From an uncultured beta proteobacterium (GTDB lineage: Bacteria; Pseudomonadota; Gammaproteobacteria; Burkholderiales; Burkholderiaceae_B), in assembly GCA_903821335.1 (NCBI GenBank), contig CAIJKV010000343.1, positions 1 through 32,695 of the forward strand: a stretch of 32,695 bases of DNA. The letters are read 5' to 3'. Every line of letters begins with the position of its first letter. The stretch's first letter is position 1. Below are positions 8,246-25,579 of this stretch, piece by piece. Under the pieces are notes generated by a model. That model was not told the DNA's origin. It did no database searches and saw only the letters and a list, made by a program, of their open reading frames with translations. A program made the position numbers and the translations under genes.

Positions 8246-8836
8246 ATGATTCTTTACCTGCACGGTTTTCGCTCGTCGCCGCAATCGTTCAAAGCGCGCC
8301 TGATGGAAAAGGCAATGGCTGCGCGGGGGGCCTCGGGTCTCTGGCGTTGCCCGCAACTTCCGGCCAGCCCGGCGGCGGCGATCATCGTCGCACGCGAGAT
8401 GGCCCGGGAACTGATCGACGCGGGCCCGGACAACGACCCGTCACAACTGGCCATCGTCGGCTCCTCGCTCGGTGGATACTACGCGACCTGGTTGGCAGAA
8501 GAGCTGGGCGCGCGCGCGGTGTTGCTCAACCCTGCCGTACAGGCGCCACGTGACCTGGCCACTCAGGTTGGGTCGCATACCGAATTCCATCGTGATGCGC
8601 CTTTCGTATTTTTACCTGAGTATGTATGCGAACTGGCTGCCATCTCAGTCGCTCGCATTACCCGCCCCGAGCGGTATCTGCTGGTCGCCGCAACCGGCGA
8701 CGAGGTATTGAACTGGCAGGAAATGCGCGATTTTTTCCCAGGATGCCAACAAATGATCATTCAAGGCAGCGATCATGGCCTTTCCGATTTTGAAACCTGG
8801 CTACCCGAAGTCATGGACTTTACGGGTCACGCCTGA
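8246..8836 (+). CDS. YqiA/YcfP-family alpha/beta-fold esterase
   Basis: A 196-residue small alpha/beta hydrolase starting MILYLHGFRSSPQSFKA, which is characteristic of the YqiA family (short-chain acyl or palmitoyl-CoA esterases in E. coli). The likely triad is Ser74 in GSSLGG, Asp152 in ATGDEVLNW, and His177 in GSDHGLSDF. In Burkholderiales it commonly sits between mpl and the RNB ribonuclease gene, as here, with an 11-base gap to the next start. The physiological substrate is not known. Confidence 0.88.
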   Translation: MILYLHGFRSSPQSFKARLMEKAMAARGASGLWRCPQLPASPAAAIIVAREMARELIDAGPDNDPSQLAIVGSSLGGYYATWLAEELGARAVLLNPAVQAPRDLATQVGSHTEFHRDAPFVFLPEYVCELAAISVARITRPERYLLVAATGDEVLNWQEMRDFFPGCQQMIIQGSDHGLSDFETWLPEVMDFTGHA

Positions 8837-12735: not shown

Positions 12736-13914
12736 ATGCGTACAGCCCGCCGTTACCTCGCCCGTGAAATTTATCGCTCCACATCGGTCGTGGTGCTGGC
12801 TCTGATCGGACTTTTCACCTTTTTCACGCTCGTCGATGAACTCGATACCGTTGGTGACAAATTCCCCCTGACCGCTCTGTTCTACCTTCAATTCCTTGCG
12901 GTGCCAGCACGGCTGTATGACCTGCTGCCCATCGGCCTGCTGATCGGGTCCATCCTGGCCCTGGCCGGCCTGGCCCAGCGCAATGAACTTGTGATCCTCC
13001 GCGTTTCCGGCGTCAGCGGCATGGGTTTGCTCGGTATGCTCTGGGCCATCTCCATCCCAGTCATCGTCGGGGCGATCCTGTTGTCGGAAATCCTCACGCC
13101 GATCGCCGAAATCAAAAACAGTGAGGCCAACCTGCTGATGCGCGGACGCGTGGAAGGTGGTCGACTCGCGAGTGGTTACTGGTTCAAGGAGCCGACCCCA
13201 CAAGGTGGAACACGCGTAATCAACGTTGGGAAACTGCTGGCGTCGGGCAATGTCGAGGATTTGCGCATGTACGAATTTCCTGGCGGATACGAACTGTCCA
13301 CCATGTCTCAGGCGCAAACCGGTCGTTTCGCAGACGGCCAGCTCATCATGCAGAACGTGACGGAAAACAAGATTTCCCCTGGGGCCAAGGACGTACTCGC
13401 AGACGCCAAGGTCACTGGCCAGCCGATCATGACCGTCACGCACATCCCGGATCGCACCGTGGAAACGAGCCTCACTCCCGAACGACTGGTCGCGCGCATC
13501 CTGACACCGGAACGCATGTCGTTGCTGGCGCTTCGGGACTACATTGCCTACCTGAACAAGAACCAGCTTCAAGCCGACCGCCAGATCGTCGCAGTCTGGC
13601 GCAAGTTTTCCTATCCCTTCACGTTGCTGGTGATGATCACCATCGCGGCCCCCATCAGCTTCATGCAAACGCGACGTGGTGGCGTCGGTGCCAAGGTATT
13701 CCTGGGCATACTGCTGGGCACCGGATTCTTCATGCTGAACCAACTCGCGCTCAATGTCGGGATGCTCTACAAGTGGCCACCGGTCGTGACCGCGCTGCTG
13801 CCCAATATCGGCGCAATGTTCCTGGCCCTGCTTGCCGTGTTCATGATGGAAAACCGGCACTCGCTGACAAGCCGCACCACCAGCCTGTGGCCCTGGGGAA
13901 AATCAGCGGTATGA
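12736..13914 (+). CDS. lptG: LPS export ABC transporter permease LptG
   Basis: A 392-residue YjgQ/YjgP-type permease with the expected plan: helices at the N-terminus ([21 protein letters not shown]), a large periplasmic beta-jellyroll section between about residues 130 and 270, and C-terminal helices ([41 protein letters not shown]). LptG with LptF and LptB extracts LPS from the inner membrane. It is called LptG rather than LptF because of the start [13 protein letters not shown] and the short periplasmic part; LptF is not next to it. The ATG at 12736 matches the family N-terminus, but its ribosome site is poor. A TTG at 12715 is an alternative. It overlaps apaH by ATGA. Confidence 0.9.
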
Positions 13915-14747
13915 CCATGCCCAGCATCTGGATGATCGGGGATGTACAGGGCTGTTGCAATGCCCTGGACGACCTGCTGGCCAAGCCTGAAATCGCAGGC
14001 GACACGGATGCTAATTTCTGGTTCGCCGGTGATTTGGTCAACCGCGGGCCACACTCCCTGACGACGCTGCGCAGGATCATGTCCATGGAAGACCGCAGTG
14101 TTGCGATTCTTGGCAATCACGACCTGCATTTGCTTGCGGTTGCCGCTGGCGTCAGGCGCCCGGGGAAGAACGACACACTCCTTGATGTCCTTGACGCGCC
14201 CGACTCGCAGGAAATTATCGACTGGCTGCGCTGGCGTCCGCTGGCGCATTATGCGCACGGGCACCTGATGGTCCATGCCGGCGTGCTGGCCAAATGGGAT
14301 ATCACCAAGACACTACAACTCGCCTACGAAGTCGAAACCGCGCTGCGCAGCAACAACTGGCAAAAAACGCTACAAAAAATGTACGGCAACGAACCCAGCC
14401 GCTGGAACGAGGATCATACCGGCGGTAAACGCTTGCGGGTCATCATCAACGCGCTGACTCGCATGCGCATGTGTACGACCAAAGGTCGCATGGTCCTGCC
14501 CATCAAGGCAGCACCCGGCCAGCGCGTCGACGGCCTGGTGCCCTGGTTTGATGTACCGGATCGCGCCACGCGCGATATCACCGTCGTGTTCGGTCACTGG
14601 TCGACGCTGGGACTGGTGATGCGGTCAGACGTCATCTGCCTAGACACGGGTTGCGTCTGGGGAGGCCACCTCACCGCCGTGCGCATGCAGGACAGGCAGG
14701 TCGTGCAGGTCTCCTGTAAACAAAACGCTGACCCCCTGGCCGACTAG
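13911..14747 (+). CDS. apaH: Symmetrical bis(5'-nucleosyl)-tetraphosphatase
   Basis: A 278-residue metallophosphatase that splits Ap4A into two ADP. The three metal-binding motifs are present near the N-terminus: [21 protein letters not shown] and GNHDLH. C-terminal motifs are [19 protein letters not shown] and [17 protein letters not shown], diagnostic of ApaH. The start ATG overlaps the lptG stop (ATGA), so the two are probably co-translated. It ends 26 bases before the stop of the convergent hydrolase gene, with no obvious terminator in between. Confidence 0.95.
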
Positions 14748-14773: not shown

Positions 14774-15646
14774 CTAAACGACCTGTCCTTGCTCAAACCA
14801 CCGCAGCAAGATGGCATTCACCGCCTCGGCAGCCTCATATTGCACCCAATGCCCGACGCACGGCACGATTCGGCCAACGCGACCCGTATGGCCCGACACC
14901 AGCGTCTGCATTAAGACCTCCGGCGTGCAGGTGACCTCGTGTTCGCCCCAGAGGAACAACGTCTCCCCGGCGTACCCTTCCAGCGTTGCGGGCAACCCGC
15001 CCGTTTGCGAAATTCCCCGGCTACGAAAACGCGTGTCGATGCAGGCTTGCGTATGGATCCGCATCGCCAGGCTGTCAATCTGATCATCCCCATGCAACAT
15101 ATGCACCCACAGATTGTGCTGCATTGCGGCTGACAGTTCCTCATCACTGAGCGCACGCTTCCAGTTGACAAGCGTTCCGCGCGGACGACGGGGGCCGCCA
15201 TGACCGCCCGGCCCCAGCAACCCGAGACGGCGTATGTTGTCAGGCCGCCTGACAGCGATATGCGCGCAAACAAGTCCACCAAAGGAAAAACCACACAGGT
15301 TAAAAGCGGTATCGGTGCCGATCAGTTGTTCAAGGCTTGCCAGCGTGAGGTCGACCAGCGATGATAAATCGTCAAACGCCGGCGTCGAGGAATCACCATA
15401 GCCAGGCAAATTGGGGATCAGCAAGGAAAACCTGCTCGACAGGGCATCAATATTGCGCGCCCAATGCAGCCAGCTGCCATGGCCGCCATGGATCAGTACC
15501 AGGGGCTCGCCTTGGCCAAACTGACGCCAGACCACCTCGCACCCGTCCACGCTGACAACGTGGCGTCGTGCGCACAACTCTTGCGCCGCGAGCCAGGACT
15601 CAGCCTGCGCATCTTCGATCATCCACTCGGTATTTCGACTCGTCAT
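14774..15646 (-). CDS. Alpha/beta-fold hydrolase, MhpC-like
   Basis: A 290-residue alpha/beta hydrolase. The oxyanion segment is LVLIHGGHGSWLHW (residues 49-62). The nucleophile elbow is CGFSFGG, with Ser121. The C-terminal His is His266 in CVGHWVQYEAAEAV. The acid position carries Glu (WGEHEV, Glu237) rather than the common Asp. The fold and length resemble meta-cleavage-product hydrolases and lactonases, but esterase or thioesterase activity is equally possible. The ATG at 15646 is chosen because AAGGA lies 8 bases upstream, better placed than for the two GTG codons just before it. It is the last gene of a minus-strand set with acyl-CoA enzymes and a Bug binding protein, which suggests a catabolic role. 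Confidence 0.82.
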   Translation of the reverse strand: MTSRNTEWMIEDAQAESWLAAQELCARRHVVSVDGCEVVWRQFGQGEPLVLIHGGHGSWLHWARNIDALSSRFSLLIPNLPGYGDSSTPAFDDLSSLVDLTLASLEQLIGTDTAFNLCGFSFGGLVCAHIAVRRPDNIRRLGLLGPGGHGGPRRPRGTLVNWKRALSDEELSAAMQHNLWVHMLHGDDQIDSLAMRIHTQACIDTRFRSRGISQTGGLPATLEGYAGETLFLWGEHEVTCTPEVLMQTLVSGHTGRVGRIVPCVGHWVQYEAAEAVNAILLRWFEQGQVV

Positions 15647-15695
15647 CACCACATTCCTTTTCCAATGCCGCTACCTGTGTCGTGAGGATTATTCA

Positions 15696-17795
15696 CTACC
15701 CCAGCACAACAATACCGTCGGCTGCACGCACACCCTGCCCTGCCGGTAAGACGAAAATCGGATTGATTTCCGCCTCGATCAAACGCGCCCCGAGTTGCGC
15801 CACCATCTGCGAGAACGCCACGATCGCCCCAACCAGCGCGTCGACATCAGCTTTGGGGCGGCCTCGAAAACCATCCAGCAAGGGCCAGGTTTTCAACTCA
15901 TGCGCCAACGACCACGCCTCAAGCTGTGACAAACCACCCTGCGGTGGCAACAGCCGCATCGCGGTGTCATTGAACAATTCGGCGGTCACCCCGCCCATCC
16001 CCAGCAAAATGGCCGTACCCAGCACATCCCGATGCATTCCCAGGATCAGCTCTGTGCCACCCGTGATCATCTCCTGGACCAGGAAACGATCGGGCTCAAC
16101 TCCCGCGCGGGCCAGCACCTCCTGACGCATCGTCAGCAAACGCGCGGCGACCTGCTCCGTGGTGACGTCGACTGCTACACCTCCGACATCACTCTTGTGT
16201 GTAATCTGTCGGGACAGCAACTTGAGCACAACCCGCCCACCCAGCTTTTCTGCAGCCTCGCGCGCCTCGAGACCCGTCGCCACGACGATCTCGCGGACTC
16301 CGGGCACGCCGAACCGTGCAAACATTTGCTTGGCTTGAACCTCGTCGAGCGACCCGGCGGTCAGAAGGTCAACGCGTTCGTCTGCCGCATTGACCAGCAC
16401 TGGCGTGGCAGCTGTCTGAGTTGTTGCCTTGAATGTAGCCACCTGCAACATCCCGGTCAACGCCGCCGTGCAACTTTCGGGTGCCGCAAACGCGGGCACA
16501 CCGCGCTGATTCAGCAGCGCGCCGACTTCAGGGGCATGAGGACTCACGAAGGCGATCACGGGCTTGGCTGAACCTGCCAGGCAATCCTGAATCGCGTCAG
16601 CCATCAAGTGCGGCATGGCCAGGCTTGATGACCCGACAATGATCACCAGCGCGTCATAACTCGGGCTGTCGAGCAAGGCGCGAATCGCGCCACGCAACAA
16701 ATCAGGCTGCAAGCCCGCCAGGGTCACATCGATAGGATTGCGGTCCAACGCGGCATGATCTCCCGTTTGCAAGGCCCGCAACCTTTCGCCGGTGGCCGCA
16801 TCGGGTGCTGGCGTCTCAAACCCGGACACCCCCAGACTGTCGGACACCAACGTGCCTGCGCCACCGGTCGACGTCAAAATCGCCACACGATTCCCGCGCA
16901 ATATCCGACCCGTCGACAAGGCTGCAGGCATATCAAGCAAATCGCTGAACGTCTGCGCACGGATCACCCCCAGTTGCCTGAACAGTGCGTCGTACATACG
17001 GTCGGCACCCGCCATCGCTCCGGTATGCGACACTGCGGCCTTGGCACCCGCCTCGGATCGTCCAATTTTGAACGCCACGACCGGCTTGCCAGCACGTGTG
17101 GCTTTCAATACCGCCGCGCGGAATTTTTCAGGATACCGAATCGTCTCGACGTAGAGCGCGATCACGCGCGTTGCCTCGTCATCCACCAGATAATCCACAA
17201 AGTCGGCAAGTTCCAGGTCAACCTCGTTGCTCGTGGAAATCAACTTCGACAGGCCGATCCCGCGCGCCGCTGCACGCGACAGCAACGCGCCCAGAATACC
17301 GCCGCTTTGCGAAACAACACCGATCGACCCGGCTGGGAAATGATCCATTTCAAGCGCGCCACTGGCCGACAGAGGGATGTTGTCGGTCAGGTTGACCAGT
17401 CCGATCGTATTGGGCCCAAGCAGTCGCATGGTGCCTGCCGACTCCAGCAATTGCTGTTGGCGCCGCGCGCCCTGCTCTCCGGTCTCAGCGTAGCCACTGG
17501 CCAGCACAATCGCGGCAGCGCAGCCACGCTCGGACAACTCACGCACAGCCTGATGGGCACGCTCGGCACCCAGCAGAACGATCCCCACGTCGGGCACACC
17601 AGGCAGCGATTGCACATCCGGATAACACTTCAAGCCATCTACACTTTCGATGCGCGGATTCACAGGGTAGATTTCCCCGGTGAATCCATGTTTACGCAGG
17701 TAGGCGACAGGACGGCCTGCCGTCTTTCGAACATCAGCCGAAGCGCCGATGATGGCAACACTGGTGGGCCTGAGCAGACGGGCAATCGCATTCAT
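15696..17795 (-). CDS. ADP-forming acyl-CoA synthetase (acetate-CoA ligase family)
   Basis: A 699-residue single-chain NDP-forming acyl-CoA synthetase. Domain order: N-terminal CoA-binding Rossmann domain (LRPTSVAIIGASAD, residues 8-21), ligase-CoA domains with the phosphohistidine loop AVSHTGAMAG (His257), and a C-terminal ATP-grasp domain from about residue 480, containing KLLSRQITHKSDVGGVAVDV and the end AEINPIFVL. Such enzymes link an acyl-CoA to a free acid with ADP/ATP exchange. The acid cannot be predicted. It lies between the enoyl-CoA hydratase and the hydrolase genes on the same strand, with gaps of about 50 bases. In Alcaligenaceae, similar proteins often occur with Bug proteins and CoA-ester enzymes. 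Confidence 0.9.
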   Translation of the reverse strand: MNAIARLLRPTSVAIIGASADVRKTAGRPVAYLRKHGFTGEIYPVNPRIESVDGLKCYPDVQSLPGVPDVGIVLLGAERAHQAVRELSERGCAAAIVLASGYAETGEQGARRQQQLLESAGTMRLLGPNTIGLVNLTDNIPLSASGALEMDHFPAGSIGVVSQSGGILGALLSRAAARGIGLSKLISTSNEVDLELADFVDYLVDDEATRVIALYVETIRYPEKFRAAVLKATRAGKPVVAFKIGRSEAGAKAAVSHTGAMAGADRMYDALFRQLGVIRAQTFSDLLDMPAALSTGRILRGNRVAILTSTGGAGTLVSDSLGVSGFETPAPDAATGERLRALQTGDHAALDRNPIDVTLAGLQPDLLRGAIRALLDSPSYDALVIIVGSSSLAMPHLMADAIQDCLAGSAKPVIAFVSPHAPEVGALLNQRGVPAFAAPESCTAALTGMLQVATFKATTQTAATPVLVNAADERVDLLTAGSLDEVQAKQMFARFGVPGVREIVVATGLEAREAAEKLGGRVVLKLLSRQITHKSDVGGVAVDVTTEQVAARLLTMRQEVLARAGVEPDRFLVQEMITGGTELILGMHRDVLGTAILLGMGGVTAELFNDTAMRLLPPQGGLSQLEAWSLAHELKTWPLLDGFRGRPKADVDALVGAIVAFSQMVAQLGARLIEAEINPIFVLPAGQGVRAADGIVVLG

Positions 17796-17851
17796 CGTTC
17801 ATGATCCTTTTTTCATTTTTGGCAGAGTCGGGCCATCGCCCGCGAGACCGA

Positions 17852-18646
17852 TCAGGCCATGATCTTTGGACTGATCCGGGCCAGGAAGGCCATCACAGCC
17901 TCGCGATGTTCAGCGCTTGTGTAGCAAATGCCTTGCGCCTGACTGCCCTGTGCGAAGACCTGCGGTGAGGTCAGTTCAAACGTCTGGTTCAAAATCGTCT
18001 TACCCAGCGCGAGCGCAGTACTCGACCCTTTGCTCAGTTCCACGGCCCAGGCCTGGGCGTGCCCCACCAGCTCCAGGTCATCAACCAACCGGTCTGCGAT
18101 GCCAAGGTCAAGCGCCTCTTGCGCGGCAACCTTGCGACCGCTGAAGATGAGCTCCTTGGCTTTCGAGAGCCCCACGCGGCGCGGCAGGAAATACATGCCT
18201 CCACCGTCAGGAATCAGACCCCGATTGATATAGGACCAGGTAAAGCTACTGGACGGACACGCCACGATAAAGTCACAGGCCAGGGCCGTATCGGCACCCA
18301 GTCCTGAAGCCGCACCGTTGACCGCCGCGATGGTTGGCTTGGGCATCGTGTGGAGCAGCGATTGCGTATGGTGCACGCGCTGTTGGCGCGCCCAACCGTT
18401 AAAGGCGATCTCGCCCGGCGGGGCTTGCATGCGACGCTCCATCCCGGCGACATCGCCGCCGGCGCAGAATCCCTTGCCGCGACCTGTCAGGACCAACGCG
18501 CGAATCTCGCGATCAGCCGCGACGTGTTCAAGCGCGGCAATGAATTCCGTGCGCATGTCGTCGCTCATGGCATTGCGTTTTTCAGGGCGATTCAGGTAAA
18601 TCGTCGCGACGCTGGCCTCTACCTGCATTTCAATGAGTTTGTACAT
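17852..18646 (-). CDS. Enoyl-CoA hydratase/isomerase family protein, PaaG-like
   Basis: A 264-residue crotonase-fold enzyme. The two oxyanion-hole segments are KGFCAGGDVAGM (residues 58-69) and AAVNGAASGLGADTALACDF (108-125). The rat enoyl-CoA hydratase Glu144 position is not Glu. Instead an Asp is present in RGLIPDGGG (Asp147), a pattern seen in PaaG-type isomerases that act on ring or unsaturated CoA esters. It therefore may be an isomerase rather than a hydratase. ATG at 18646 follows AGGACCGGTGGA. It is located between the Bug protein gene (57 bases upstream) and the acyl-CoA synthetase (56 bases downstream), in a likely operon for CoA-ester catabolism. Confidence 0.88.
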   Translation of the reverse strand: MYKLIEMQVEASVATIYLNRPEKRNAMSDDMRTEFIAALEHVAADREIRALVLTGRGKGFCAGGDVAGMERRMQAPPGEIAFNGWARQQRVHHTQSLLHTMPKPTIAAVNGAASGLGADTALACDFIVACPSSSFTWSYINRGLIPDGGGMYFLPRRVGLSKAKELIFSGRKVAAQEALDLGIADRLVDDLELVGHAQAWAVELSKGSSTALALGKTILNQTFELTSPQVFAQGSQAQGICYTSAEHREAVMAFLARISPKIMA

Positions 18647-18702
18647 TCCACCGGTCCTGTCTCTGAAGTTAAGTATTGATAGGCTTTTACAATGCGTCCT
18701 GC

Positions 18703-19692
18703 TCAGTTAGTCGTGATGTGCGCATCCCGAACCACCTGGCTCCAGCGTTTTTCTTCGTTGCGCACGAAGGTTTCCATTTGCTCGGGTGGTCCGGTACTGA
18801 CGACCAGACCTTCCTCGGTGACACGCGTCTTGAAACCTTCTGTCTTGACAGCCTCTGCAGCCGCTGCGTTGAGCCGGGCCACCACGTTGGCAGGCGTGCC
18901 AGTCGGCGCCAGCAGGCCATACCAGCTCTGTGCGACGTATCCGGGCACACCCGACTCGGCGATCGTGGGAATATCGGGCCTCGCATCAGAACGCTCGGCT
19001 GCGGTCACCCCCAGCGCACGAAGTTTGCCGCTGTCAAGCAGAGGGGCTGCCCCGGCTGCCGTGGCGAACATCAGGTCGACCTGCCCACCCATCAAGTCGG
19101 TCAGGGCGGGGCTAGCCCCCCGGTACGGCACATGCGTCATGTCAACTTTCGCGAGGATATTGAAGAGTGCCCCCGCAAGATGCGCAGACGTTCCATTGCC
19201 CTGGGAAGCATAGGTGAGCCGGCCTGGATTCGTCTGGGCGGCGACGATCACGTCCTTGACAGACTTAAACGGACTGTCGGCGCGAACGACCAGAATGTTT
19301 GGTGACCAGCCAATCAGCACCACCGGGGTGAAGGCTGTATCGGCCGAATACGGCAGGCTTGGCATCAAACTCGGGTTCACTGCATTGGCGAAGGTTGCCA
19401 TCAGCAATGTGTAGCCATCGGGTGCGCTTTTCGCGACAGCATCGGTGCCGATGATGGTGCCTGCCCCCGGCTTGTTTTCAATGATGACGGTTTGCCCGAG
19501 GGACGCGGCCAGGCCCACGCCCAGCGTGCGCGCCACGGCGTCGGTGCCGCCTCCCGCGGCAAAGGGCACGACGATACGCACGGCCTTTTCAGGAAAATCC
19601 GCCTGGGCACTCGATGAAAACAACCCTGCCAACAGCGCACCGACGCACAGGTTGACGAAATGACTCGCAGACGACGGACGAAAAAATTGCAC
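18703..19692 (-). CDS. Bug-family (TctC) tripartite tricarboxylate transporter solute-binding protein
   Basis: A 329-residue periplasmic binding protein. The signal peptide is hydrophobic (FVNLCVGALLAGLF) with cleavage predicted after SSSAQA, giving a mature start DFPEK. The mature protein begins with the family hallmark VRIVVPFAAGGGTDAVARTL, then NKPGAGTIIGTDAVAKSAPDGYTLLMAT. I chose the GTG at 19692, since AAGGGGA sits 5 bases upstream and the signal peptide becomes normal in length. A GTG at 19743 would add 17 residues. No tctA or tctB membrane genes are nearby. It heads the minus-strand catabolic set and diverges from a second Bug gene at 19899. The ligand is unknown; family members bind carboxylates, amino acids and aromatic acids. 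Confidence 0.9.
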   Translation of the reverse strand: MQFFRPSSASHFVNLCVGALLAGLFSSSAQADFPEKAVRIVVPFAAGGGTDAVARTLGVGLAASLGQTVIIENKPGAGTIIGTDAVAKSAPDGYTLLMATFANAVNPSLMPSLPYSADTAFTPVVLIGWSPNILVVRADSPFKSVKDVIVAAQTNPGRLTYASQGNGTSAHLAGALFNILAKVDMTHVPYRGASPALTDLMGGQVDLMFATAAGAAPLLDSGKLRALGVTAAERSDARPDIPTIAESGVPGYVAQSWYGLLAPTGTPANVVARLNAAAAEAVKTEGFKTRVTEEGLVVSTGPPEQMETFVRNEEKRWSQVVRDAHITTN

Positions 19693-19808
19693 CGGCTTCC
19701 CCTTGGCAAACACACACGTGCCTGCTTGCAGCAGTGTAGGCACACGAACCCCAGCCTAGCATGGCACGATTCCAACAGCCAGTCGTCGCGCAAGGGTTAG
19801 GAAATCTG

Positions 19809-19837
19809 TTGCGTAGCCAGACCCCGTCGAGTATAAG
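19809..19837 (+). promoter_or_regulatory. Candidate sigma-70 promoter in the divergent Bug-Bug intergenic region
   Basis: TTGCGT (TTG matches the -35 core) at 19809-19814, a 17-base spacer, then TATAAG (5 of 6 matches to TATAAT) at 19832-19837. Transcription would start about 55 bases before the ATG at 19899. The 206-base region between the two divergent genes holds no other gene that I can see, and is the logical place for an operator, although no clear inverted-repeat binding site stands out. Confidence 0.4.
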
Positions 19838-19898
19838 AAACACTGGACACATAACAAGATGATCCGCACACGGTTGCGGTCACACCAGGAGATGACAA

Positions 19899-20909
19899 AT
19901 GGATCGACGGCGGGCGCTTTCCTCACTTGCGGCGTGTCTGGCGGGGGGTATCACACCAGGTATCGTTTCTCAATCCGTTCAGGCGCAAGCCGTTGCAGTT
20001 CAATCACTAGCAGGCCGCCAGTTTCGTTTCGTGGTGAGCTACCCGGCCGGTGGCGTGGTGGACTTCGCCGCACGCACGGTCGCCGACGGTTTGAATCAGG
20101 CGACGGGTTCCCTGGTGATCGTTGAAAACCGCGCGGGTGCGGCCGGCAATATCGCCACCGAATTCGTCGCACGTCAGCCTGGCGATGCGGGCGTGTTTGG
20201 CGTGTTTTCAAACTCGACACTGTCGACCAATCCGTTCGTGCCACAGCTTGCGTCCAAGAACGTTGATCCTTACAAAGACCTGGTACCGGTGGCGGCGATC
20301 GTCGACATGATTCTGGTACTGGCCGTCACGCCCCAACTGGGCGTGTCGACCATCGATGAATTTCTGGCCAAGGCCAGATCCTCACCACAGCCACTGCGCA
20401 TTGGTCTGGCAGGGATCGGGTCACCTCATCACCTGGCAGCGCTATTGCTTGAAAAATCTGCTTCACTGAACCTGATCCTCGTGCCGTACAAAGGCGGAGC
20501 CCCGATGATCGCCGATGCCGCCGGCGGCCATCTTGATGCCGTGTTCACCACGGTTCCGGTCGGTGGCCCCATGGTGGCAAGCGGAAAATTGCGCTGGATT
20601 GCGATTGCCCAGCCTACCGTGATCAACAGCCTGCCCGGTATACCCTCGCTTGTGAATGTTTTCAAGGGAGCAACGATTCCATCGTGGGTGGGTGTTTTTG
20701 CGCCAACAAGCACCCCCTCAAGCCTTGTGCTGTCCATGCATGAGGCCTTGAACCAAGTCGTCAACAGCACGGCAATCGCTGAAAAATTGCGCAAAAACGG
20801 ACTCGAGCCGCTCGATCAAACGCTTGCGCAGACCGGCAAACTCATCAGCGATGAAGCGGTTTTCATGAAAAACTTCCTGTCAGAATTCAAACTTGATTTT
20901 TCGGCCTGA
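19899..20909 (+). CDS. Bug-family (TctC) solute-binding protein, second copy
   Basis: A 336-residue periplasmic binding protein. The N-terminus MDRRRALSSLAACLAGG is a signal peptide with consecutive arginines (possibly Tat-like, not certain), with likely cleavage near SVQAQA. The mature hallmark is RFVVSYPAGGVVDFAARTVADGL, then ENRAGAAGNIATEFVA. Compared with its divergent neighbour at 18703-19692, the fold is the same but the sequence is clearly different, so this is not a recent duplication. AGGAG lies 8 bases before the ATG at 19899. The gene precedes the LigJ-like hydratase gene by 32 bases and may supply its substrate precursor. Ligand unknown. Confidence 0.9.
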   Translation: MDRRRALSSLAACLAGGITPGIVSQSVQAQAVAVQSLAGRQFRFVVSYPAGGVVDFAARTVADGLNQATGSLVIVENRAGAAGNIATEFVARQPGDAGVFGVFSNSTLSTNPFVPQLASKNVDPYKDLVPVAAIVDMILVLAVTPQLGVSTIDEFLAKARSSPQPLRIGLAGIGSPHHLAALLLEKSASLNLILVPYKGGAPMIADAAGGHLDAVFTTVPVGGPMVASGKLRWIAIAQPTVINSLPGIPSLVNVFKGATIPSWVGVFAPTSTPSSLVLSMHEALNQVVNSTAIAEKLRKNGLEPLDQTLAQTGKLISDEAVFMKNFLSEFKLDFSA

Positions 20910-20941
20910 TCCTTTAACACTTCACCGTACCCCTCTCTCCC

Positions 20942-21982
20942 ATGATCATCGATTGCCACGGTCACTTCACCACCACCCCGCCCCAGGTCGCAGCGTTCCG
21001 TGCGCGTCAGACGGCTGAGTTCAAGCGCACCGGCCAAACGCCCACCGAAGCGCCACCCGCTGTGACCGACGAGGAAATCCGTGTCGGCATCGACAAGAAC
21101 CAATTGCGCATCATGCGTGAACGAGGCATCGACCTGACGATTTTTTCTCCACGGGCGGTGGGGATGGATCACCACATGGGCAACGAAGACACCAATGTGG
21201 TGTGGGCTCGCTATTGCAACGACCTGGTGCACCGGGCGTGCAGGATGTTCCCGGACCAGTTCGTCGGGGTATGCCAGTTGCCACAGGCCGCTGGGGTCAA
21301 GCCTGGCGCGCGTGTGTTTGAAGAGCTTGATCGCTGCATCAACGAATACGGGTTTATCGGTGCAAACCTGAACCCGGACCCGACGGGTGGCCGCTGGAGC
21401 GACCCGCCACTTTGGGACAAGGACTGGTGGTATCCCCTTTACGAGAAAATGGTCTCGCTGAACATCCCGGCCATGATTCACGTCAGTGGCTCCTGCAATC
21501 CGCACTTCAATGCGGTCGCCACGCACTACATCAATGGCGACACGACCGCATTCGTGCAGTGCATGACCTCAGACATTTTCAAAGATTTCCCAACCCTGAA
21601 ATTCATCATCCCGCATGGCGGTGGCGCAGCGCCCTATCACTGGGGTCGGTACCGCGGCATGGCTCAGGACATGGGTTTGCCGCCGCTTGAAGAAAAAGTG
21701 CTGAACAATGTGTTTTTCGACACCTGTGTCTACCACCAGCCAGGAATCGACTTGCTGCTACGCGTGGTGCCCGCCAGGAACATACTGTTCGCCTCCGAGA
21801 CTGTGGGCGCCGTCCAGGGCATTGATCCACTCACCAACCATTACTTTGACGATACCCGCCGGTACATCGACGCTTCGCCTTCGGCGAATGCGCTGGAGAA
21901 ACAGCAAATTTATTCGGACAACGTACTCGGTGTGTACCCGCGACTGCGCGCGCACCCAAGGTGCCGCGACTGCGCACTCTGA
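20942..21982 (+). CDS. Amidohydrolase-family 4-oxalomesaconate hydratase-like protein (LigJ-like)
   Basis: A 346-residue amidohydrolase-superfamily protein that strongly recalls LigJ of Sphingobium SYK-6, which hydrates 4-oxalomesaconate in protocatechuate 4,5-cleavage. It starts MIIDCHGHFTT, giving the HxH metal pair His6/His8. Other expected ligands are His180 (AMIHVSGSCN) and Glu286 (FASETVGAVQGIDP). Family landmarks are NLNPDPTGGRW, PHGGGAAPYHWGR and NVFFDTCVYHQPGID. The similarity is from memory, not from a search. The ATG at 20942 fits the family start, but no Shine-Dalgarno is visible (CCTCTCTCCC precedes it). No ring-cleavage dioxygenase or other pathway gene is in the window. The last ten or so residues differ from what I recall of LigJ. 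Confidence 0.82.
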   Translation: MIIDCHGHFTTTPPQVAAFRARQTAEFKRTGQTPTEAPPAVTDEEIRVGIDKNQLRIMRERGIDLTIFSPRAVGMDHHMGNEDTNVVWARYCNDLVHRACRMFPDQFVGVCQLPQAAGVKPGARVFEELDRCINEYGFIGANLNPDPTGGRWSDPPLWDKDWWYPLYEKMVSLNIPAMIHVSGSCNPHFNAVATHYINGDTTAFVQCMTSDIFKDFPTLKFIIPHGGGAAPYHWGRYRGMAQDMGLPPLEEKVLNNVFFDTCVYHQPGIDLLLRVVPARNILFASETVGAVQGIDPLTNHYFDDTRRYIDASPSANALEKQQIYSDNVLGVYPRLRAHPRCRDCAL

Positions 21983-22042: not shown

Positions 22043-22795
22043 TCAGGTCAGCAGCTCCGCCCTGATCGCTTCGCGCGCCAGCCTGCCCAGCTGCGTGCGG
22101 GTTGGAGGTGCGCCACCAGGGGTTTGCCCACCGGCCCAGATGACAGGCAGAAACACCACTTCAATACTGACCCCCGAGCCGCCAAGCAGCCGCCACAAGT
22201 TCCCCGCCAGTGTTTCTTCGCCAACATAGGCGGCAAAGTCGCTACGACCCCCCTGATGGTAATAGCGCAAAGCCACCGGCTGGATCGCTGTGCCTGATTT
22301 GCGGGCGGGCTCAAACAGGTTGGCGTAGAAAGCCAGCACGTCAAACCCCGGCGATGTCGTACCTTCGGGGAACAAACCCACCGATTGCCCGCGTTCAAAA
22401 TGCTGTGCAATCGCCTGGCCCGCCTGGTGCACGGCATGGCGCGACGCGCGCTCAATAAAGATAGTGTCCGCACCCGCAGCCAGCCAACCAATCAGCGGCC
22501 AACTGCGAATCTCACTTTTGGCAACAAACGCTGTGGAGCGCACACCGTTCAGCACAAAGATATCTACCCAGGACACATGGTTGAGGACCCATAACACGGG
22601 TCCGTCCAAACAGGGTGTTCCCATTGAGGACACACGCAGCCCACAAATCCACAGCAATATCCGCGACCAATGCTTTTTTGCCCAAAGCCGATAGGGCAGC
22701 GCACCCAGGGGAAAGGTCAGCGCGATCGTCAACAGCCCGATGAGGATCCAGACCAGGCAGGCAATCGCCCGGGGCACAAACCGCAGCACGGTCAA
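22043..22795 (-). CDS. 1-acyl-sn-glycerol-3-phosphate acyltransferase family protein (PlsC-like)
   Basis: A 250-residue membrane-associated acyltransferase. After an N-terminal hydrophobic segment (AIACLVWILIGLLTIALTFPLG) come the HX4D motif NHVSWVD (His73, Asp78) and the substrate motif LFPEGTTSPG (Glu144). It should transfer a fatty acyl group to lysophosphatidic acid or a related lipid. The proposed start is TTG at 22795, which overlaps the stop of the pyrC' gene (TTGA) and has GGAG 8 bases upstream; GTG at 22789 is the alternative. An ATG much further upstream would read through pyrC' in another frame and is rejected. It is the last gene of the yqgE-ruvX-pyr unit and is convergent with the LigJ-like gene. 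Confidence 0.88.
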   Translation of the reverse strand: MTVLRFVPRAIACLVWILIGLLTIALTFPLGALPYRLWAKKHWSRILLWICGLRVSSMGTPCLDGPVLWVLNHVSWVDIFVLNGVRSTAFVAKSEIRSWPLIGWLAAGADTIFIERASRHAVHQAGQAIAQHFERGQSVGLFPEGTTSPGFDVLAFYANLFEPARKSGTAIQPVALRYYHQGGRSDFAAYVGEETLAGNLWRLLGGSGVSIEVVFLPVIWAGGQTPGGAPPTRTQLGRLAREAIRAELLT

Positions 22796-24087
22796 GCAGG
22801 CAGCTCCCACACGACGCGTCCGCGCACGACAGTCGTCGTCACACGTCCAGGCAAGTCGAAACCCAGAAATGGCGTGTGCTGGCTTTGACTGAGCAAGGAC
22901 TGTCGGGTCACTTGACGTGAAGCATGTGGGTCCAGCAGGCACAAGTCTGCATCCACACCCACACCAAGCTGGCCGCACGGCGGAACAGCAGGCGAAGAAC
23001 ACATCAGGATACGGGCTGGATCACACGTGACGCGCGCGATGGCATCGAGCAAGGGCACGCGCGCATCCTGCGCCCACTTAAGTGTCAACGAGAGGAGTAA
23101 TTCAAGTCCCGTCGCACCTGGCTCGGCCTCTGCAAACGGCAAATTCTTGCCGTCGTCCGACACGGGGGTGTGGTCTGAACAGACAGCGTCGATCGTTCCG
23201 TCGGCCAGGCCGGCACGGATGGCATCGCGGTCACGCTGACCACGCAGCGGGGGATCAAGCCTGAAATTGGTGTCGTAGTAACCAATGTCCACATCAGTCA
23301 GATGCACATGGTTCGCCGACACATCACAGGTCACGGGCAGGCCTTCGCGCTTGGCGGCACGCACGAGTGCTATACCCGCCGCCGTCGACAGCCGGCACAG
23401 GTGCAGGCGCACACCGCAGGCGCGCTGCAACTCAAACAGGGTATGAAGCGCGATGGTTTCGGTCTGGGCTGGAATCCCTGCCAGCCCCAGGCGCGAGGCA
23501 TAGGCGCCGCTGGCGGCAACCCCACCACGGGACAGCCACGGATCGGTTGCACGCAGCCACAGGACATAGTCAAACGTGCGGGCGTATTGCATGACACGCA
23601 ACAGGACGGTGGTATCCAGCACAGGCGTATCAGCCTGCGAAAACGCCACACAGCCCGCCTCGGTGAGCTCAGCCATCTCGGTGATGACCTCACCTTGCAA
23701 GCCGATTGTCATCGCCCCCAGCGGATACAAATTCACAAGATCCAACTGGCGGGCGCGATGCTTGAGCATCTCGACCAGGCCCGGCTCATCAAGCGTCGGA
23801 TCAGTATCTGGCGGCAACACCAGGGTGGTGATGCCGCCGGCCAGCGCCGCGCGCATTTCAGATTCAAGCGTTGCGCGATCTTCGACAGGTGTGCGCAGGC
23901 GTGCCGCCAAATCCACGATGCCAGGCAAGACTAGCCTGTCGGTTGCGTCAAGGATACGGTCAGCCATGAACCCAACAGGCGCCACGTCAAGCGCGGCAAT
24001 CTTGCCATGCGAGACAAACACGTCGGCCACACGGTCGATGCCATTGGCCGGGTCAATCAGGCGACCATTTCTGATATGCAGATTCAT
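22792..24087 (-). CDS. pyrX: Dihydroorotase-like inactive subunit (PyrC'/PyrX)
   Basis: A 431-residue homologue of class I dihydroorotase, encoded directly after pyrB (4-base overlap). The metal-binding HxH that should follow LVLPGIVDL is replaced by Ala61-Ala62-Arg63 (DLAARLRTP instead of DLHVHLREP). The equivalents of the Asp near FSDD (here FSQAD), the HAED block (here LRATDP) and the next His (here CRLSTAAG) also lack ligands, while Asp305 in CSDHTP remains. This matches the non-catalytic PyrC' proteins known from pseudomonads and related bacteria, which hold the aspartate transcarbamoylase complex together. The active dihydroorotase must be elsewhere. The symbol follows usage for such homologues; pyrC' is also used. 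Confidence 0.9.
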
Positions 24088-25037
24088 GCCGATGCTCCCG
24101 CGACAATACTCATGACCGCCATACGAACGGCAATTCCAAACGTCACCTGATTCAGAATGACTGACTGTTTGCCGTCAGCGACCGCCGAGTCGATTTCAAC
24201 GCCGCGATTCATTGGGCCGGGATGCATGACGATGGCATCGGGCTTTGCCAGCGCAAGTTTTTCCGCAGTCAGCCCATAGTGCTTGAAGTATTCGTGCGAC
24301 GACGGCAACAACGCACCGCGCATGCGTTCATTCTGCAGGCGCAGCATGATGATGACATCCACGCCTTTCAACCCTTCGCGCATGTCGGTAAACACCTGCA
24401 CGCCCATTTGCTCCAGCCCGGACGGCAACAGGGTCAAGGGCCCGATGGCCCGCACTTGCGCCACACCGAGCGTGGTCAAAGCATGAATGTTGGAGCGTGC
24501 GACGCGCGAATGCAGTACGTCACCGACAATCGCGACCGTGAGGTTGGAAAAGTCCTTCTTGAAGTGCCGGATCGTGTACATGTCCAGCAACGCCTGAGTA
24601 GGATGCGCATGGCGCCCGTCACCGGCGTTGACGACGTGCACATGGGGCGCGACGTGCTGCGCAATCAGGTAGGGGGCACCACTTGCCTCGTGTCGTACGA
24701 CAAACAGGTCGGCCTGCATGGCCGAGAGGTTCGCGATGGTATCGAGCAAGGTCTCGCCCTTGGCTGCGGACGACACGTTGATATTCAGGTTGAACACATC
24801 GGCCGACAGGCGTTTGGCCGCGATCTCAAAGGTCGTGCGGGTACGCGTGGAGTTTTCAAAAAACAGGTTGAACACGCTTTTACCGCGCAGCAACGGGACT
24901 TTCTTGACGTCGCGGTCTGCCAGCGGCACGAACGTCTGCGCGGTGTCGAGAATGTGCGTCAGAATGTCGCGCGACAGGCCTTCCGTGGTGATCAGGTGGG
25001 TCAGTTCACCGTGCCGATTGAGTTGGGGGTTACGCAT
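24084..25037 (-). CDS. pyrB: Aspartate carbamoyltransferase catalytic subunit
   Basis: A 317-residue enzyme that condenses aspartate and carbamoyl phosphate in pyrimidine synthesis. The carbamoyl-phosphate motif [12 protein letters not shown] is intact. [15 protein letters not shown] and [13 protein letters not shown] are present, and the length is normal for class A-type trimers that pair with PyrC'. Its ATG shares one base with the pyrR stop (TGATG), and its stop overlaps the start of pyrC' (ATGA). No pyrI regulatory chain is present, consistent with the pyrB-pyrC' complex type. Confidence 0.97.
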
Positions 25038-25579
25038 CAGTCTTCCTCGGTTTCAAGGGTCAGGACCAGCCTCCCGGCGTCGGTCTGGGAAAGCACCAGA
25101 TTGCCAGCCGGCGCCGGTGAAACACAGCCTCCTGCGGCGACCGCCGCGATCGGAAGCTCACGTCCACCACGATCGACCAGGACAGCCAGCCTGATCGACG
25201 CGGGCCGGCCATAATCAAACAGCTCGTTCATGGCCGCGCGTATCGTGCGACCGGTGTAGAGCACGTCGTCGACGAGCACCAGGTGCTTATCCGTGACAGG
25301 AAAGGTTATCTCGGAGGGCTGCACTTGCGAATGCAGGCCAATCCGGTCAAAGTCATCGCGGTAAAAACTGATGTCCAGCGTGCCATAAGGCTGCACCAGC
25401 TTGAGGTCACGGTGCAGTCGCTGGGCCAGCCACGCGCCGCCCGAGTGAATGCCGACCAGATGCACTTGCTGCACCGGCAGGGCCTGGATTTCGTGTCGCA
25501 CGGCCACCAGCAGGTCCGCATAAAGCGTTTCGGCGTCGGGCAGGGTGTCGGGGGAGTAGAGGTGGGGTGTCTGGGACAT
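25037..25579 (-). CDS. pyrR: Bifunctional pyr operon regulator/uracil phosphoribosyltransferase
   Basis: A 180-residue type I phosphoribosyltransferase. The PRPP-binding signature is [18 protein letters not shown]. An [12 protein letters not shown] loop lies nearer the N-terminus, with [13 protein letters not shown] between them, as in PyrR. In Gram-positive bacteria PyrR binds pyr mRNA to cause attenuation. Here no anti-terminator leader is visible and the gene is embedded between ruvX (9 bases) and pyrB (overlap), so the regulatory role is uncertain. Uracil phosphoribosyltransferase activity is plausible. Confidence 0.93.

Follow-up and report, generated by a model that had tools for sequence, protein, structure and literature searches.

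LigJ, a 4-oxalomesaconate hydratase, is named as the KCH hydratase in passages of PMC12314914, and routes leading to oxalomesaconate are treated in passages of PMC8091115. The syringate route also involves the ester hydrolases DesC, DesD and MgaC, the first two being CHMOD methylesterases of the alpha/beta fold according to passages of PMC12314914. As for CoA thioester chemistry, the feruloyl-CoA synthetase FCS1 has a fused domain build (PMC6388921, in part), as does the ADP-forming 4-hydroxybutyrate-CoA ligase 8wzu, and Asp136 is assigned a catalytic role in the isomerase PaaG in passages of PMC7497051. Finally, an excess of orphan Bug solute-binding proteins has been described in Bordetella (passages of PMC5994714).

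The locus analyzed here lies in a window of 32,695 nucleotides, one whole contig from the genome of an uncultured beta proteobacterium (3.99 Mb in 408 contigs). The original prediction, made from the sequence of this window, was a six-gene divergent catabolic block with no known pathway assignment, located between housekeeping genes and having the look of an accessory insertion.

Gene content and predicted activities

The places and strands predicted for the six open reading frames were confirmed by an ORF check and by Pfam, and the proposed gene names (a hydrolase, an ADP-forming acyl-CoA synthetase, a PaaG-like crotonase, two Bug proteins and a LigJ-like hydratase) were borne out by Pfam and sequence matches. 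The flanks were also as predicted, i.e. apaH on one side and plsC and pyr genes on the other: ApaH and dihydroorotase score above the NCBIfam cut-offs, and the acyltransferase belongs to PF01553. The features are as follows.

13773..14747, plus strand: apaH, conserved flank (NCBIfam; the match begins at residue 51, which puts the true start at about 13.92 kb)
14774..15652, minus strand: HYD, serine alpha/beta hydrolase (Pfam and profile search; at the apaH–plsC site in 30 of 32 genus genomes)
15653..19898, no strand: interval holding the trio BUG1, ECH and ACS, exact borders not placed (trio absent from the HYD–LIGJ interval in 28 of 28 other genus genomes)
15696..17795, minus strand: ACS, fused ADP-forming acyl-CoA synthetase, third gene of the trio (Pfam CoA_binding_2, Succ_CoA_lig and ATP-grasp_5)
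17852..18646, minus strand: ECH, PaaG-type crotonase, second gene of the trio (Pfam ECH_1)
18703..19743, minus strand: BUG1, TctC/Bug solute-binding protein, first gene of the trio (PF03401, 264 bits, gathering cut-off 27)
19744..19898, no strand: divergent gap of 155 bases between BUG1 and BUG2, with a promoter-like site on the minus strand (19857-19830)
19899..20909, plus strand: BUG2, TctC/Bug solute-binding protein, directly upstream of LIGJ (PF03401, 165 bits, cut-off 27)
20942..21982, plus strand: LIGJ, 4-oxalomesaconate-hydratase-like protein of the amidohydrolase superfamily (Pfam Amidohydro_2; adjoins plsC in 30 of 32 genus genomes)
22043..23002, minus strand: PlsC-type acyltransferase, conserved flank (Pfam PF01553)

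The annotated start of BUG1 is a GTG, and the true start may lie further downstream. The genes of the run BUG1-ECH-ACS-HYD are separated by 56, 56 and 43 bases, from which spacing we infer that the four genes may be co-transcribed. Five promoter-like sites were found in the region versus 1.8 expected, by consensus match only, and they were not used as evidence. The two Bug genes are to be viewed against a background of 126 TctC/Bug matches and three TctA matches in the whole genome of about 4 Mb, a pattern of many TctC and few TctA that resembles the Bug expansions described for Bordetella in passages of PMC5994714. Owing to this genome-wide excess, the presence of two Bug genes at the locus tells little by itself.

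ACS shares with the ADP-forming acyl-CoA synthetases, as represented by 8wzu, the fused domain order and the active histidine. Indeed, His257, in the motif SHTGA, aligned with its counterpart in 8wzu and is the candidate phosphorylated residue. ACS differs from the described families in scoring far below all NCBIfam equivalog cut-offs (best 384 bits versus 1200). ECH retains the catalytic aspartate of PaaG (1,2-epoxyphenylacetyl-CoA isomerase; 3hrx, 6slb), since its Asp147 aligned with Asp136, but it reaches 177 bits against a TIGR02280 cut-off of 345, and the block contains no other paa gene. At what we take to be the positions of the two hydratase glutamates, the alignment reads Asp and Tyr in ECH, which makes an isomerase likelier than a hydratase. 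ECH thus looks like a PaaG-type isomerase, in keeping with the PaaG-like reading made at the outset. A model in which ACS and ECH act as an Fcs–Ech (feruloyl-CoA) pair was also considered and found no support among the crotonase matches listed: no model or protein name of the hydroxycinnamoyl-CoA hydratase/lyase type occurred among the best 25 of 73 NCBIfam matches or the best 60 of 226 PDB matches.

HYD belongs to the same alpha/beta fold class as the meta-cleavage-product hydrolases HsaD, BphD and MhpC. A profile search ranked HsaD first (five distinct chains) and an epoxide hydrolase next; BphD and MhpC also appear in the top 11. None of the 20 aligned rows deviates at Ser123 or His268; the acid residue is an Asp in most rows and a Glu (Glu239) in the window protein. 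An AlphaFold model of HYD (3 sequences) had a mean pLDDT of 68 and a pTM of 0.74, and Foldseek placed the carboxylesterase 4ccy first and HsaD second of 1593 matches with E up to 0.001. Since a carboxylesterase stands above HsaD, the fold does not decide the reaction. DesC, DesD and MgaC, as described in passages of PMC12314914, are of the same fold class and are likened to HYD by description, not by sequence; by analogy, DesC/DesD acting with LigJ is a possible model for HYD and LIGJ. In one homologue of HYD (L265:9114-9899), the range delimited by the match contains a stop codon, reflecting either a real break or an end effect.

Distribution of the six genes in related genomes

We compared the locus across 32 genomes of the genus, the source genome included. 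HYD and LIGJ are both present at the apaH–plsC site in 29 of them. LIGJ adjoins plsC in 30 genomes, the exceptions being G003, with a 57% copy at another place, and G012, with a 62% copy on a different contig and HYD placed between apaH and plsC. HYD occupies the site in 30 genomes as well (exceptions, G001 and G003). On the far side, apaH was found in 26 of the 29 genomes having both genes; the view stops at a contig edge in G008 and G024, and no apaH lies within 3.5 kb before HYD in G025. LIGJ is split across two contigs in G005 and G023. BUG2 stands between HYD and LIGJ in eight of the 29 genomes, counting the source genome. By contrast, none of the 28 other genomes, in all of which the HYD–LIGJ interval is readable, holds BUG1, ECH or ACS there.

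The block therefore splits into a core pair, HYD and LIGJ, to which some genomes add BUG2, and the trio BUG1-ECH-ACS, which is distinct from it. The presence/absence comparison between apaH and plsC thus had a divided outcome: the core pair is kept by the genus, whereas a trio between HYD and BUG2 is unique to the source genome, and a six-gene unit was not borne out.

The trio recurs elsewhere. With a threshold of E <= 1e-200, a trio-type ACS was found in 23 of the 32 genus genomes and, in the 22 besides the source genome, it lies outside the apaH–plsC site. ECH adjoins ACS in 17 of these 22 (a contig end cuts ECH in L071, L035 and L037), the full order BUG1-ECH-ACS is seen in ten, and three have BUG1-ACS without ECH. 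The surroundings of the trio vary among genus genomes, some being common to groups such as G004, G014, G018 and G031. Within the family, ACS is present in 79 of 268 genomes, i.e. in 56 genomes of other genera once the 23 of the genus are subtracted; in 20 of those 56 that were examined, ECH stands beside ACS in 18 and the trio is complete in ten. This recurrence at other places in the genus and in other genera shows that BUG1-ECH-ACS is a module of its own.

Several neighborhoods contain further genes. A gene for a bacteriorhodopsin-like protein lies just downstream of the trio-type ACS in G006 (L074:9870-10712). In three stretches from another genus (g32; L275, L227 and L282), the trio is 2-3 kb from a LIGJ paralogue; in L275, which was scanned, a VOC/glyoxalase-family gene and an FAA hydrolase gene lie between ACS and LIGJ, and the same clusters occur in L227. 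At the apaH–plsC locus itself, pyrB and pyrC of five stretches (L054, L058, L059, L063 and L068, from G004, G016, G018, G014 and G031, respectively) are 48-61% identical to those of the window, the range in the other stretches being 73-97%. In these five, the small gene adjoining pyrB (25037-25579 in the window) has no match; the pyr cluster of this subclade looks displaced.

Descent of the trio and of its surroundings

A quick tree of ten proteins of the locus (29 rows) placed the source genome as sister to G012 and G021 with an SH-aLRT of 100. A window gene labelled yqiA by its place (8246-8836, plus strand) matched only G021 and G012 among the relatives' stretches examined, a restriction consistent with this sister position. 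HYD of the window also groups with G021 and G012, as in the species tree, with modest support (89/79). In a quick LIGJ tree, the window protein and that of G021 occupy basal positions among the genus rows, and L116-L118, three rows from other Burkholderiales, are nested within the genus, indicating that LIGJ has moved between genera too. Given this nesting and the modest support for HYD, the descent of the core genes is not perfectly vertical.

The trio has a different history. AU tests, for which the constrained groups were chosen after the trio trees had been seen but were drawn from the species tree, rejected joining ACS with the copies of G012 and G021 (p 1.4e-5), joining ECH with the same two (p 0.019) and joining BUG1 with the copy of G021 alone (p 1.5e-4). 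Joining BUG1 with an eight-row genus clade was rejected as well (p 0.006). From the trees and AU rejections, we conclude that the trio did not descend with the remainder of the locus. While gene-level evidence of transfer had been considered not visible in the sequence, there is thus gene-level evidence of separate descent. The initial description of the block as an accessory insertion holds for the trio, i.e. three genes of six, and fails for HYD and LIGJ, the pair kept in 29 of 32 genomes; the insertion of the trio is probably lateral.

Where the trio came from is less clear-cut. In a careful ACS tree, from which the long branches L082 and L230 were left out, the window protein falls outside a 100/100 clade of 17 genus rows; forcing it into this clade was not rejected (p 0.156). 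For this reason the trio may have moved within the genus or may reflect old paralogy, the more so since the window ECH groups with G031, G004, G018 and G014, another subclade of the genus (98/86). A trio belonging to the genus could thus have been relocated in this lineage, or exchanged between species of the genus, in which case no outside donor would be needed; the single trio-type ACS of the source genome, whose next best matches reach 38% and 36%, fits this possibility. Against it stand the rejected unions with the sister-species copies for all three genes, the rejection of BUG1 from the eight-row genus clade, and the closer relationship of ACS to other genera: its full-length identity to the proteins of G134, G129, G139 and G135 is 79%, versus at most 73% within the genus. 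On balance, we regard an origin without an outside donor as rather unlikely. An assembly error would be another way to obtain an arrangement that is unique within the genus, particularly in a genome of 408 contigs, but it would require two misjoins about 4.2 kb apart in a single 32.7 kb contig, and the trio matches its flanks in composition and is bordered by short gene gaps on both sides, which makes this explanation very improbable.

As for insertion marks, no tRNA was found in the window, the trio and its flanks show no shift in GC or tetranucleotides, and the two 14-base families of direct repeats do not bracket the trio. A perfect 16-base inverted repeat has its arms in HYD (15059-15074) and BUG2 (20175-20190), on either side of the trio, and is the sole such 16-mer in the window. 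It was set aside as an insertion mark because such a repeat also arose in six of 200 block shuffles of the region and because HYD of four relatives differs from the arm by 5-6 mismatches. The relatives' intergenic DNA aligned too poorly for the borders of the insert to be placed.

LIGJ, pathway context and a probable composite origin of the block

Among solved structures, LIGJ is closest to the 4-oxalomesaconate hydratases (2gwg from R. palustris, E 7e-137; LigJ 6dxq, E 1e-126), LigY (5vn5) reaching only 1e-55. It aligns with LigJ from residue 1 to about 340, with conservation of H6, H8, H180, H225 and E286, among which the metal ligands presumably lie. The genomic context differs from that of LigJ systems: LigA and a true LigK were not found in the genus, and LIGJ stands with HYD, sometimes with BUG2, and not with lig genes. 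At 78 named non-genus loci, some of them on stretches shortened by contig ends, the neighbors of LIGJ within 4.5 kb include genes of the LigK/RraA type (34), LigB type (15), LigC type (13), LigI type (13) and LigA type (12). For LigK and LigB, one representative each scored over the cut-off, and for LigA a PF07746 match occurs at the same place in the L184 contig; the LigC-type and LigI-type labels are our assumption, their representatives hitting other models below cut-off. The nearest non-genus LIGJ (L116, 80%) stands with a BUG2 homologue (63%) and an RraA-like gene, and in two genomes of another genus (L278 and L279) a 63-64% LIGJ is found with a crotonase, an RraA-like gene and a Bug gene. 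These RraA-like neighbors make a hydratase–aldolase pair with an RraA-like aldolase possible.

The strong similarity of LIGJ to LigJ, with the His and Glu positions conserved, would be expected if LIGJ served in protocatechuate 4,5-cleavage or gallate breakdown of the ordinary kind, with the remaining genes elsewhere in the genome, and one of the six RraA-like proteins matched in the source genome could replace LigK. However, LigA (PF07746) was found in none of the 32 genus genomes by a search whose built-in controls were silent but which gave a match in four of five lig-type genomes used as a positive control, and no LigK scored over the cut-off in any of the 32 (cut-off 304.5, a true member scoring 390; best identity 37%). 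The LigB family (PF02900) has matches in 16 of the 32 genomes, of which only that of the source genome was typed: this single match has 4,5-DOPA dioxygenase as its nearest model and stays under the cut-off of that model (163 versus 233), and GalA-type fusions, which would carry PF02900, have no other match in the source genome. The canonical lig pathway was rejected on the LigA and LigK results, which also render doubtful a lig-type aromatic role for LIGJ, and we consider a complete pathway dispersed in the genome to be unlikely. LIGJ is a core gene of the genus without its textbook pathway. The other functional alternative, that all six genes form one pathway for uptake, CoA activation, isomerization, hydration and hydrolysis of a single substrate, agrees with the tight spacing of the genes in the window and with two observations in other genera. 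Of 23 genomes having both a trio-type ACS and a LIGJ homologue, seven have the two genes no more than 30 kb apart, measured between starts, versus 0.40 expected from random placement, so that a functional link between LIGJ and ACS is hinted at, and two of 11 HYD surroundings contain a BUG-ACS-HYD run, its ACS being a different one (35-36%). Yet the seven close pairs come from two genera and do not amount to seven events, the LIGJ copy concerned is a 57-59% paralogue, HYD and a trio-type ACS are that close in none of 14 cases, and the six genes are together in none of the 28 other genus genomes with a readable interval; a single six-gene pathway is accordingly improbable. The BUG-ACS-HYD runs do provide a parallel for the order BUG1-ECH-ACS-HYD of the window. 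They comprise an upstream acyl-CoA dehydrogenase gene, then a Bug gene, a different ADP-forming synthetase gene and a HYD homologue (L271:8970-14129, scanned, and its cluster mate L270:5089-10319), and in them HYD and CoA activation are a natural pairing.

We consider it probable that the block is a composite of two modules, the trio having been inserted from a source other than the copy of the sister species. According to this composite explanation, the inherited content of the apaH–plsC site would be HYD on the minus strand, facing away from BUG2-LIGJ, or from LIGJ alone, on the plus strand; the co-directional BUG1-ECH-ACS would be an accessory operon whose location varies among relatives and which entered the HYD–BUG2 gap in the source lineage. 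The insertion would have made HYD the last gene of the run BUG1-ECH-ACS-HYD. The chemistry that we propose for the two modules is tentative, with somewhat less than an even chance of being right. BUG1 would bind a carboxylate, ACS would convert it to its CoA thioester via a phosphohistidine at His257, and ECH would shift the double bond of the thioester with Asp147 in a PaaG-like manner, after which beta-oxidation genes elsewhere in the genome would take over. BUG2 would bind, and LIGJ hydrate, an oxo-tricarboxylate of the oxalomesaconate kind, and HYD would hydrolyze an ester or a C–C bond of a ring-cleavage-like product. More speculatively, and with a rather low probability in our estimation, the core LIGJ and the meta-cleavage-like HYD could form a stripped-down route for ready-made oxo-tricarboxylates, i.e. 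ring-opening products released by other organisms or by light, taken up through Bug proteins and used without a lig-type ring-cleaving dioxygenase of the organism's own; in the source lineage, this route would have been wired to a CoA-activation operon by the lateral insertion that captured HYD.

The statement that no described pathway has this set of genes stands as far as our search of open-licence PubMed Central reached, in which none of the papers listed was recognized as dealing with this gene set or with LIGJ in this lineage. Isolate names hint at a freshwater origin, which is a guess. Two metagenome-assembled genome records match the locus of the genus: JARXAG010000119, from a Burkholderiaceae bacterium, and CAMBPA010000077, whose label, Bordetella parapertussis, is probably a misnomer. 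The title Bordetella parapertussis is borne by the records of the environmental contigs L115 and L122; since L115 carries the locus of the genus, its label looks wrong.

For the genus, these results mean that the LigJ annotation is unsafe, because key partners in the textbook pathway were not found even though the gene itself is conserved. The locus would also be a case of operon capture, the resident gene HYD now standing behind an incoming operon. More generally, what looks like a single pathway in a catabolic block can be composed of two modules that differ in history.
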